A stretch of DNA of 37,004 nucleotides from Candidatus Bathyarchaeota archaeon B24-2 (GTDB lineage: Archaea; Thermoproteota; Bathyarchaeia; Bathyarchaeales; B24-2), in the NCBI GenBank assembly GCA_002490245.1, contig PCNA01000013.1:1-37004 (forward strand), in the 5' to 3' direction. Under the pieces are notes generated by a model. It had not been told where the DNA came from. It searched no databases and saw only the letters and a list, made by a program, of their open reading frames with translations. How positions within the stretch are numbered: the first letter of the stretch is position 1; each line of letters begins with the position of its first letter. Below are positions 33,484 to 36,964 of this stretch, piece by piece. The position numbers and the translations under genes are program-made.

Positions 33484-34635
33484 ATGTTGGAGATGGGTTC
33501 ATCGCAAACCCTTACTGCTAAATATATAATTAAAGCTAAATTTGAAGTTGAAGGCGTGGTCGAGAAGCCCGACATCATAGGAGCGGTTTTCGGTCAAACA
33601 GAAGGTTTATTTGGACCCGAATTAGACCTCAGAGAACTACAGAAGTCTGGTAGGATAGGGAGGATCGAGATAGAGCTGAAATCGAAGGGTGATAGAACTT
33701 ACGGGAGGATAATAATCCCGACGAGCCTCGATAAGGTTTCCACAGCCATCATAGCGGCGAGCATAGAAAGCATAAACCGGGTCGGCCCCTGCGCCTCCAA
33801 GATAACCCTAGAATGCATAGAGGACGTTAGGGAAGCTAAAAGAAAACAGATCATCGAGAGAGCTAAAAAGATACTTCACGACTGGACCATAGAGAGTTTG
33901 CCGACGGCGGAGGAGGTCTACAGAGAAGTTTCTGAAACCTTAAGGACGGCAAGGGTCGAGAAATATGGCCCTGAAGGCCTAACCTGCGGGCCTGAAGTAG
34001 ACTCGGCTAAAGAGATAATAATCGTCGAAGGTAGGGCAGACGTCATAAACATGCTGAAATGCGGCTACCAAAACGTGATAGCGCTTGAGGGCGCGAAGAT
34101 CCCCGAGACTATAATAAAGTTAACTAAGGAGAAAGAGGCTACAGCGTTGTTAGACGGAGATAGAGGCGGCGACCTGATACAGAAGGAGCTACTCCAAGTC
34201 ACGAACGTGAAGTATATAGCTAGAGCTCCCGAAGGAAAGGAGGTCGAAGACCTAACCCCAAACGAGATAGCTGAAGCTCTCAAGAACAGGAGACCCGTTG
34301 AGGAGTTATATAGGGAGGCCCGTAGGAGGGTCGGGAGGAAACTTGTGCCGAGAAAGATAGTGGAGATAGCGAAGGAGATCGAGGGAACCTTAGAGGCTGT
34401 TCTCCTAAACGAGAAGCTCGAGGAGATAGGAAGGCTGCCAGTCGGGGAGCTAGCCGAGAAACTTAAAGAGAAGGAGGGTGTGGAGACCATAGTGTTCGAC
34501 GGTGTGATAACTCAGCGTTTAGTAGACATAGCCGAGGAGAAAGGTGTAAAGTACATCGTAGCCGGGAGGATCTCGAACATCGTTAAACAACCGCTTAATA
34601 TGCATCTAATAACGTTCTCAGAGATCTATGGGTGA
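33484..34635 (+). CDS. dnaG: archaeal DnaG (Toprim-domain primase-related/exosome-associated protein)
   Basis: KYIIKAKFEVEGVVEKPDIIGAVFGQTEGLFG, Toprim IIVEGRADVINMLKCGYQNVIALEG, LLDGDRGGDLI. Confidence 0.93.
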   Translation: MLEMGSSQTLTAKYIIKAKFEVEGVVEKPDIIGAVFGQTEGLFGPELDLRELQKSGRIGRIEIELKSKGDRTYGRIIIPTSLDKVSTAIIAASIESINRVGPCASKITLECIEDVREAKRKQIIERAKKILHDWTIESLPTAEEVYREVSETLRTARVEKYGPEGLTCGPEVDSAKEIIIVEGRADVINMLKCGYQNVIALEGAKIPETIIKLTKEKEATALLDGDRGGDLIQKELLQVTNVKYIARAPEGKEVEDLTPNEIAEALKNRRPVEELYREARRRVGRKLVPRKIVEIAKEIEGTLEAVLLNEKLEEIGRLPVGELAEKLKEKEGVETIVFDGVITQRLVDIAEEKGVKYIVAGRISNIVKQPLNMHLITFSEIYG

Positions 34636-36964
34636 GCGCCTGCTTTATCTCGACGCCGAAGATCTTTAGTATCCTCTCCACAGGAGGTACTATCTGCTTC
34701 CAGATATAATACTCTATGTCGACATCCTCGATAGAGGCCAAGTTGTATGGAATAGCCCTCTTATAGATCGGACCTGAACCCGAAATTATCACGTAACCCA
34801 CTTTATCCCCAGGATAGATGGTCCATCCCTTATCGATCAGTATCTTAGCTGCCTCTATATGTGGAGCGTTGACTTTATACTCTTCGATCGGTCTGGTAAT
34901 GGACTTCCAGATCACGAGGTCTTTCAGCGGAACCTTCCGTTCCCTAAGTTGAGATACGTATTCGACCACGAAGTCTCTAGCCTTATCCGGGGACTTCTCC
35001 TTCAGGATGATCTTTAAGACCTCCTCTTGAACCTTTTTGGCCGCTTCAGCCCAGTCTCCACGTACTATCTCGAAGCCTACATAGTCTAATCTTCCGTCCT
35101 TCAGTAAGCCGCAGTACCTTTTCTTAGCCTCCGTGAAGAGCACCCTAACGTAGACCTTGTCCGGCCTCAACTCTAAACCTAACTTCTTCCTAACTATGTC
35201 CAACAGTTTATCGACCTTGGCTTCATCGTACTCCACGAAGACGCTGTCTGTATCCCCGTAGATCACGTTCAGGCCTAACTCTTTGGAAAGTTCAAGGGTG
35301 CTTCGGATGATGTACCTCCCCCAAGCGGTAGCCGCTTCTGCGACAGGCTTGATGTACCACCTTGCACCCAACCAGCCAGCGTAACCATAAACCGCGTTCG
35401 TGATGACCTTTATCGCCTTCTGTCTAGCATCGTAAAGCCTATAGCTCGGGCTCCCCACGGCTAAACTTTTAAGTTTAACCCGCAGCTCGTCTCTAGCCGA
35501 GATGAGGTCTTCTAGAATCTTCTTGTATATCCCGGGAGGCTCCTTCAGAAACCTATGTCCAACTTCAGGAGCCACATACACCTTCTCTTCCGGAACGTCC
35601 GCTCCAGGCTCGACATACGTGTCTGGAGATATATTGTACTTTATCATTATGTTTGGATATAGGGACTTGAAGTCTAGGACCGCGATGTTTTCGTGTAACC
35701 CTTTCTTCGGTGTTAAGACCATCCCGCCCGCGTAGGGGAAGTATCTCCTCTCCACCCTCTTCGGCACGAGCTCCCCGAACCTCCTCGCCTCCCTTATCAA
35801 AAGCCATTCGACCCTGAAGCCGACGGCGGCTGAGCCTACGTAATCCATCGGAATACCTACTATATTCGCTAGCTGCATCGAGTAGTCTAGAATCTTATCG
35901 ACTATACTCATAACCCTCCTTGCCCTATCCATCGAGAACCGAAGTAGCTTAGGACGTTTCGACGGGTCGTCCCAATACCTCGCGAACTCCATTTCGTCTA
36001 TCGATTCTACTTCACCGCCTTCTGATATTCCCAGAAACTCGGCGAAGTTCTCTAAAGTCTTAACCTTAATCTCCCCGAACTCGTCGATGTAATCGAGTAG
36101 GTCTAAGTTTATCCTACCCGTAACCGACATGTGACCGTAAACGCTCCTATGAGGAATAGTCTCCGTCCTTCCCACATACAAGTTTACACCGTTCTTAGCG
36201 GCCCTCTCGATCAAGTAATCCCAGTATTTACTGTTCGTCGCATAGCCCGCGATTATATCTGGGTCGAATCCCCTCACGAAGTCCACGAAAGATTTGATCA
36301 GGGATTTCTCGTCGCCTCCGTTGAGAGAGAACTGTTCACTCTTACCGTCGCTCGTGATTAAGGATATTATAACGATGGGGTCTCTCTTGGGGACGGGTTC
36401 GCCTACCGTGCTGTAACAGACGACCGAGAAAGCCAGTATCTTCAGGGCAGGAGTTTCATGGATGTCGAGCGGCTTGAAAGGTGGTTTAACTAGGTAAACG
36501 GCGTCTACCTTAACTCCTTTCTCACCCTCTAGCTCTTCAACCTCTACCTCGTACCAGCTACATGGCCTTAAATCTCTGTCTATCAGATACCTCGCAGTAA
36601 ATCTTATATCGTCTTCGAGAACTTTATCGACCTTCCCCGTCTTTAAGAACCATTTGACGTGTTCTTCGACGGCCTCAGGCCTCGTGTAGGTCACCTTCAC
36701 GGCGTCTACGGGTTTTCCGAAATACCTCATCTTGCAGACTTCTAGCTCCACTACGTCGCTCATTAGCTCTCTATTCGACTTAACTTCCTCGATTATCTCT
36801 CTAGGCTCCGTTTTTTCCTTCGGTATGCAGTAGAAATAGGGTCTGAAGCCCCGGTCGATGAGGAGTATCCTCATGCCTTCTCTGTCGATCCCCCAGATCC
36901 AGACCTCTGGGCAGCCATCTCTAGCCTCATAGTTAACGTCTAGGAGCCAGAAGGCCTTTCTCAT
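34595..36964 (-). CDS. polB: family-B DNA polymerase with degenerate 3'-5' exonuclease motifs
   Basis: Pol motifs A DFKSLYPNI, B KVITNAVYG and C YGDTDS intact; Exo I/II/III read AFSVVCYS, YATNSKYWDYL and RFSMDRAR. Confidence 0.95.
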   Translation of the reverse strand: MRKAFWLLDVNYEARDGCPEVWIWGIDREGMRILLIDRGFRPYFYCIPKEKTEPREIIEEVKSNRELMSDVVELEVCKMRYFGKPVDAVKVTYTRPEAVEEHVKWFLKTGKVDKVLEDDIRFTARYLIDRDLRPCSWYEVEVEELEGEKGVKVDAVYLVKPPFKPLDIHETPALKILAFSVVCYSTVGEPVPKRDPIVIISLITSDGKSEQFSLNGGDEKSLIKSFVDFVRGFDPDIIAGYATNSKYWDYLIERAAKNGVNLYVGRTETIPHRSVYGHMSVTGRINLDLLDYIDEFGEIKVKTLENFAEFLGISEGGEVESIDEMEFARYWDDPSKRPKLLRFSMDRARRVMSIVDKILDYSMQLANIVGIPMDYVGSAAVGFRVEWLLIREARRFGELVPKRVERRYFPYAGGMVLTPKKGLHENIAVLDFKSLYPNIMIKYNISPDTYVEPGADVPEEKVYVAPEVGHRFLKEPPGIYKKILEDLISARDELRVKLKSLAVGSPSYRLYDARQKAIKVITNAVYGYAGWLGARWYIKPVAEAATAWGRYIIRSTLELSKELGLNVIYGDTDSVFVEYDEAKVDKLLDIVRKKLGLELRPDKVYVRVLFTEAKKRYCGLLKDGRLDYVGFEIVRGDWAEAAKKVQEEVLKIILKEKSPDKARDFVVEYVSQLRERKVPLKDLVIWKSITRPIEEYKVNAPHIEAAKILIDKGWTIYPGDKVGYVIISGSGPIYKRAIPYNLASIEDVDIEYYIWKQIVPPVERILKIFGVEIKQALTHRSLRTLLDAY

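Follow-up and report, generated by a model that had tools for sequence, protein, structure and literature searches.

Does the family-B DNA polymerase encoded at one end of a 37,004-nt stretch of Candidatus Bathyarchaeota archaeon B24-2 DNA (contig PCNA01000013.1; this whole stretch is the window) copy DNA without being able to proofread it? Surveys, in the portions available, describe PolB3 as the main B-family polymerase in archaea and treat it as active with a normal exonuclease. A sequence-only reading of the window had predicted an exonuclease-null (exo-null) but polymerase-competent enzyme, and this prediction is supported by the sequence, the alignment to solved structures, the modelled fold and some 100 relatives that share the pattern. 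Loss of proofreading in the window PolB3 is strongly supported by the residues described below.

A PolB3-type polymerase and its exonuclease site

Judged by its sequence, the open reading frame next to the contig end encodes a chromosomal DNA polymerase of the PolB3 type at full length (Table 1). It matches PF00136 (1.2e-66) and PF03104 (3.3e-21), both above the Pfam cut-off, and its best solved relative is the Pyrobaculum PolB3 5mdn (phmmer, E=3.9e-219; 45% identity). The match to archaeal PolB3 enzymes (P. calidifontis PolB 5mdn, Sulfolobus Dpo3 and Pfu/KOD) is full-length, and fold and motifs A, B and C are alike. In a polymerase-domain tree that also included the order's PolB1 and its further PolB paralogues, the protein fell within the PolB3 clade (99% support), apart from PolB1 and the other paralogues of the class; tree and sequence both placed it nearest to PolB3 rather than PolB1 or PolB2. 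The tree of paralogues also rules out a PolB2 mistaken for a PolB3. An assembly or frameshift artefact was rejected because the frame is open throughout and the pattern is common to about 100 independent genomes, and a polymerase from a mobile element or virus because of the conserved dnaG neighbourhood and the position in the PolB3 tree.

The convergent dnaG is found at both exo-null and exo-intact (crenarchaeal) PolB3 loci, and the available text of Makarova and colleagues (2014; PMC4104785) gives it as the conserved context of crenarchaeal PolB3. Since the neighbourhood is common to both groups, the window gene is an ordinary chromosomal PolB3. We also looked at the flanks for an iRadA/PPB2 context: they consist of dnaG on one side and, on the other, of 40 bases between the polB3 start codon and the contig end (36964-37004). 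No operon partner pointing to a pathway was found at the locus, dnaG being the only flank on the contig.

Table 1. Coordinates of polB3, its motifs and the adjacent dnaG in the window (Pfu residue numbering)
Feature	Position	Strand	Basis
archaeal dnaG, convergent with polB3 and overlapping its 3′ end	33484..34635	+	NF003108 9.7e-146; synteny
polB3, exonuclease-null family-B DNA polymerase	34595..36964	-	789 aa, ATG start
C-terminal tail HRSLRTLLDAY, weak PIP-box-like (putative PCNA-binding)	34598..34630	-	C-termini compared; low model confidence
Motif C IYGDTDS, Asp571 and Asp573 kept	35243..35263	-	codons and alignment
Motif B QKAIKVITNAVYG, Lys519 and Tyr526 kept	35384..35422	-	codons and alignment
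Motif A LDFKSLYP, catalytic Asp431 kept	35654..35677	-	codons; invariant among relatives
Exo III position RFSMDRAR (canonical RYSMEDAK): Y311 to F, D315 to R	35918..35941	-	codons and alignments
Exo II position GYATNSKYWDYL (canonical GYNSNxFDWPYL): N210 to A, D215 to Y	36212..36247	-	codons and alignments
Exo I position AFSVV (canonical AFDIE): D141 to S, E143 to V	36419..36433	-	codons gct ttc tcg gtc gtc and alignments

The register of the exonuclease residues was taken from 5mdn and other PolB chains, together with 180-odd aligned PolB3 rows. With phmmer, AFSVV paired with AFDIE of 5mdn, YATNSKYW with YNSNGFDW and the SMDRAR helix with the Exo III helix, and this pairing of all three segments puts the register beyond doubt. 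The peptide read earlier at Exo I was correct, although its first codon is gct and not gcc, a trivial difference; the readings YATNSKYWDYL at Exo II and RFSMDRAR at Exo III agreed with codons and alignment, and S, V, A, Y, F and R do stand at D141, E143, N210, D215, Y311 and D315 in the alignments to 5mdn and to PolB3. Motifs A, B and C had been said to keep their catalytic residues, which the codons bear out; these polymerase residues are invariant in the relatives that cover them.

Known PolB3 enzymes proofread, whereas the window PolB3 has none of the four exonuclease carboxylates and so lacks the canonical proofreading site. It therefore represents an exo-null branch derived within PolB3 and not a standard PolB3 enzyme. 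There is no acidic residue within its Exo I, and the neighbouring acids do not fall in register; these are the D of WDYL at Exo II and the D of SMDR at Exo III, the latter aligned with E314. The exo-null exonuclease domains contained no new conserved acidic residue: the positions conserved at ≥90% are shared with the exo-intact group and look structural. Engineered exo-minus archaeal polymerases (D141A/E143A) carry changes at the same two positions and retain polymerase function; the window PolB3 differs from them in that its state is natural and clade-wide and that the other carboxylates are lost too.

The exonuclease fold had been said to be retained, and the AlphaFold model shows a folded exonuclease domain. 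With 20 aligned PolB3 sequences, the model reached a mean pLDDT of 87.2 and a pTM of 0.79, exonuclease domain included; a single-sequence run was poor (pLDDT 36). The best PDB match of the model was again 5mdn (E=2.2e-73, TM 0.78-0.81). On the evidence of the model, the exonuclease fold is kept as a structural part of the polymerase. The chain stops at residue 789, directly past the thumb, and C-terminal cysteines are absent. PIP-box-like tails occur in many relatives, with C-termini such as ..QSLLDFFGRDK, ..PKTLTDFFKS and ..QTLFEFFSK. The uracil-sensing pocket is mostly present in the window protein (Y7, P36, Y37, V93, I114, F116 and R119) and differs among other exo-null relatives.

Spread and history of the exonuclease loss

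We surveyed the genomes of the window's class that are at least 85% complete, calling PolB3 at E <= 1e-100. PolB3 was found in 95 of the 163 genomes, the other 68 having none at this threshold. Carboxylates were scored at Pfu D141, E143, D215 and D315 in 97 readable class rows, window included, a few of which repeat a genome. One carboxylate, nearly always D215, is kept in 82 rows and none in 15, the window among them; no row keeps two or more, and the Exo I Glu is missing in 97/97. The polymerase residues read DDDKY in every class row that covers them. An exo-intact group of 54 rows keeps all four carboxylates, and chance divergence of the exonuclease site was rejected on this comparison (0/97 rows with at least two carboxylates versus 54 rows with 4/4). 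Exo-null PolB3 also occurs outside the class in the same phylum, in the families f27, f28, f29, f30, f33, f36, f40, f41, f45, f49, f53 and f70; the exonuclease is intact in crenarchaeal families and several others. The loss thus has the look of a conserved shift in function rather than of gene decay.

Several individual copies depart from these patterns in other ways. A crenarchaeal-type PolB3 (L204, genome G228, f37) has exonuclease and polymerase motifs that are both decaying (NSFYDY, YADTDL). In G224 (f40), PolB3 is apparently in two pieces on different contigs (L208 and L196, query residues 3-331 and 291-787), and the break falls close to where the exonuclease domain ends; the genus-mates G300 and G280 are unsplit there. 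Large insertions at polymerase motif C in L020 and L050 are consistent with inteins. L049 (G001) has a PolB3 frame interrupted by five stops (four TAG, one TAA) and a separate C-terminal piece, and is likely a pseudogene or a poor assembly.

The history of the loss was read from a tree of the polymerase domain only; because the exonuclease domain was left out, the trait itself cannot shape the topology. The exo-null state needs two origins on this tree, the main set lying behind a branch with 99% SH-aLRT support. The second concerns L012 (Culexmicrobium) and L013 (a Methanomethylicota record), which keep one or both Exo I acids, the Asp among them, but none of those at Exo II and Exo III, an independent and partial loss of PolB3 exonuclease residues. 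Placing the protein in a PolB phylogeny had been proposed as a check, and the outcome was the PolB3 clade (99%) with the loss on one main branch. Using a Thermococcus polymerase as outgroup did not raise the number of origins. A single long outgroup places the root weakly, so that descent of the main exo-null set from one ancestral loss is the simplest reading of the sequences and not a proven one.

We then compared dN/dS between the two domains in pairs of close relatives; the window gene was left out because its nearest relative is only 56% identical. In exo-null pairs, the median (26 pairs) was 0.11 for the exonuclease domain and 0.058 for the polymerase domain; the corresponding values in exo-intact pairs (median of 6) were 0.079 and 0.061. 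Relative to the polymerase domain, the exonuclease domain evolves ~1.7x faster in exo-null pairs and at a ratio of 1.04 in exo-intact pairs. These ratios indicate that the exo-null exonuclease domain is somewhat relaxed yet under purifying selection.

Other DNA polymerases and the association with PolD

Counting the polB and polD genes had also been suggested. A single PolB was found in the window genome (1.35 Mb, 97.9% complete), which also has PolD. The large PolD subunit, DP2, is complete, carrying all three of its Pfam domains and a catalytic motif of the DGDED type; neither PolB1 nor PolY was detected in the genome. PolB1 is present in 155/163 class genomes and undetected in the window genome and seven others, and these eight non-detections may be assembly gaps. 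All 9 aligned PolB1 copies of relatives have an intact exonuclease. With PolB1 not found here, the window genome would have no replicative proofreader if DP1, the proofreading subunit of PolD, were missing too.

Exo-null lineages mostly bear PolD, and exo-intact PolB3 comes mostly from PolD-less lineages. Among 77 scorable tree rows, 39 combine DP2 with the loss and 31 have neither; the exceptions are 3 rows with DP2 and an intact exonuclease and 4 with the loss and no detected DP2. The families off the trend are f48, f54 and f57, which are DP2-positive with an exonuclease, and f53 and f70, which are exo-null with DP2 not found. This pattern fits the idea that PolD may relieve PolB3 of proofreading, a link that is unproven: with only two losses, an independent-pairs test has no power.

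Two further groups of B-family polymerases came to light. Members of the same order (L212-L216 and L219-L221) encode a ~640-aa enzyme with no aligned exonuclease motifs, which has intact DFESLYP and YGDTDS and stands apart from PolB3 in the tree. L217 and L218 are a ~770-aa PolB paralogue whose motif C reads IHGIVDS, like that of inactivated or PolB2-type enzymes.

Proposed role and alternatives

We think it fairly probable that the gene encodes a chromosomal PolB3 without proofreading that keeps its polymerase site and exonuclease fold and serves non-editing accessory synthesis. From motifs and C-termini we infer that the protein is probably an active, non-proofreading accessory polymerase tethered by PCNA. 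PolB3 would polymerise DNA without editing, and the PIP-box-like tails of many relatives would fit a PCNA-tethered gap-filling or maturation polymerase. Proofreading would be left to PolD and, elsewhere, to PolB1, with errors handled by PolD, PolB1 and repair. In T. kodakarensis, PolB maps to the lagging strand, is better than PolD at strand displacement and Okazaki maturation, and its exonuclease-deficient form is readily restored at the native locus (PMC13136892). The lagging-strand role of Thermococcus PolB matches our proposal; the difference is that editing would here be left to other enzymes. The absence of PolB3 from 68/163 class genomes implies that its role is dispensable.

It is conceivable but unlikely that the protein serves in translesion synthesis or mismatch extension, as Pol zeta and PolB2 do. 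An enzyme that does not edit could extend distorted primer ends past lesions, and PolB2 and Pol zeta, which have dead exonucleases, act as extenders according to the available part of the 2025 PolB2 study (PMC11791011). With neither PolY nor a second PolB found in the window genome, there is a vacancy for translesion synthesis. PolY, present in 103/163 class genomes, is also rarer beside PolB3 (53/95 versus 50/68 without it; Fisher p = 0.022, uncorrected for kinship), but over half of the PolB3-bearing genomes still have it. The window protein shares the dead exonuclease site with PolB2/Dpo2 and, as far as the accessible text of that study goes, the intact DxD with a TACK subset of PolB2; most PolB2 proteins, however, lack the first Asp of motif C, whereas YGDTDS is intact here and the polymerase site is canonical. 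PolB2 has a decayed exonuclease domain with iRadA and PPB2 alongside; the window protein belongs to the PolB3 clade, and its known flank is dnaG, with no iRadA/PPB2 operon there. The largely retained uracil-sensing pocket fits stalling more than bypass, although its residues vary among the other exo-null relatives.

We consider it improbable that the protein extends primers in the manner of eukaryotic Pol alpha, adding a short stretch after the archaeal primase and handing on to PolD or PolB1, which would make editing unneeded. The logic of Pol alpha is identical, and the catalytic subunits of Pol alpha and zeta combine a dead exonuclease with a live polymerase (PMC2527604, in its available portion), as the window protein is predicted to do. 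The analogy drawn with these enzymes in the sequence-only reading therefore stands in its logic, but not in architecture or descent: the zinc-binding C-terminal domain (cysteine-rich, B-subunit-binding), which serves the primase complex, is missing from this single chain, and the exo-null state arose within PolB3, independently of Pol alpha and zeta. The conserved dnaG neighbourhood would suit a primer extender, but exo-intact PolB3 has the same neighbourhood, and the convergent arrangement means separate transcription (PMC4104785, available text). The archaeal primase itself makes RNA and DNA, as the accessible part of PMC8782868 has it.

That an exonuclease survives with rearranged metal ligands is very improbable. 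PolB2 was once wrongly deemed inactive from substituted residues (PMC11791011, available part), so residue substitution alone is no proof of inactivity, and most class members keep D215; the window protein, however, has no carboxylate left and an Arg at D315, and the exo-null domains offer no new conserved acid as a substitute. Gradual inactivation of the gene, beginning with the exonuclease, is hardly credible despite the class genomes without PolB3, the five stops of L049 and the faster exonuclease domain, given polymerase residues that are invariant in the covered class rows though the loss is old, the low dN/dS medians in both domains and open full-length frames across many families.

For the non-editing accessory polymerase, a wider history is a serious possibility that we hold tentatively: an early single loss in the ancestors of several PolD-bearing Thermoproteota, after which PolB3 persisted in a dedicated non-editing role. 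The loss would be tied to fidelity supplied by PolD (and PolB1), with PolD-less lineages keeping an editing PolB3, an archaeal counterpart of the logic of Pol alpha and zeta.

Dead exonucleases are discussed for PolB2, Pol alpha and Pol zeta by Makarova (2014; PMC4104785), Kazlauskas (2020; PMC7544198), Rogozin (2008; PMC2527604) and the 2025 PolB2 study (PMC11791011), in the portions of these papers that were available. In the open-access literature, likewise available in part, we found no description of an exo-null PolB3, and the state is provisionally undescribed. A naturally exo-null PolB3 across a class and other deep lineages alters the assumptions made about replication fidelity there, and the contrast between exo-null and exo-intact PolB3 offers a natural experiment on the division of labour between PolB and PolD at the fork. 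These proteins should not be annotated as proofreading polymerases. They are also a source of archaeal polymerases that are exo-minus by nature, and some of these may be heat-stable.
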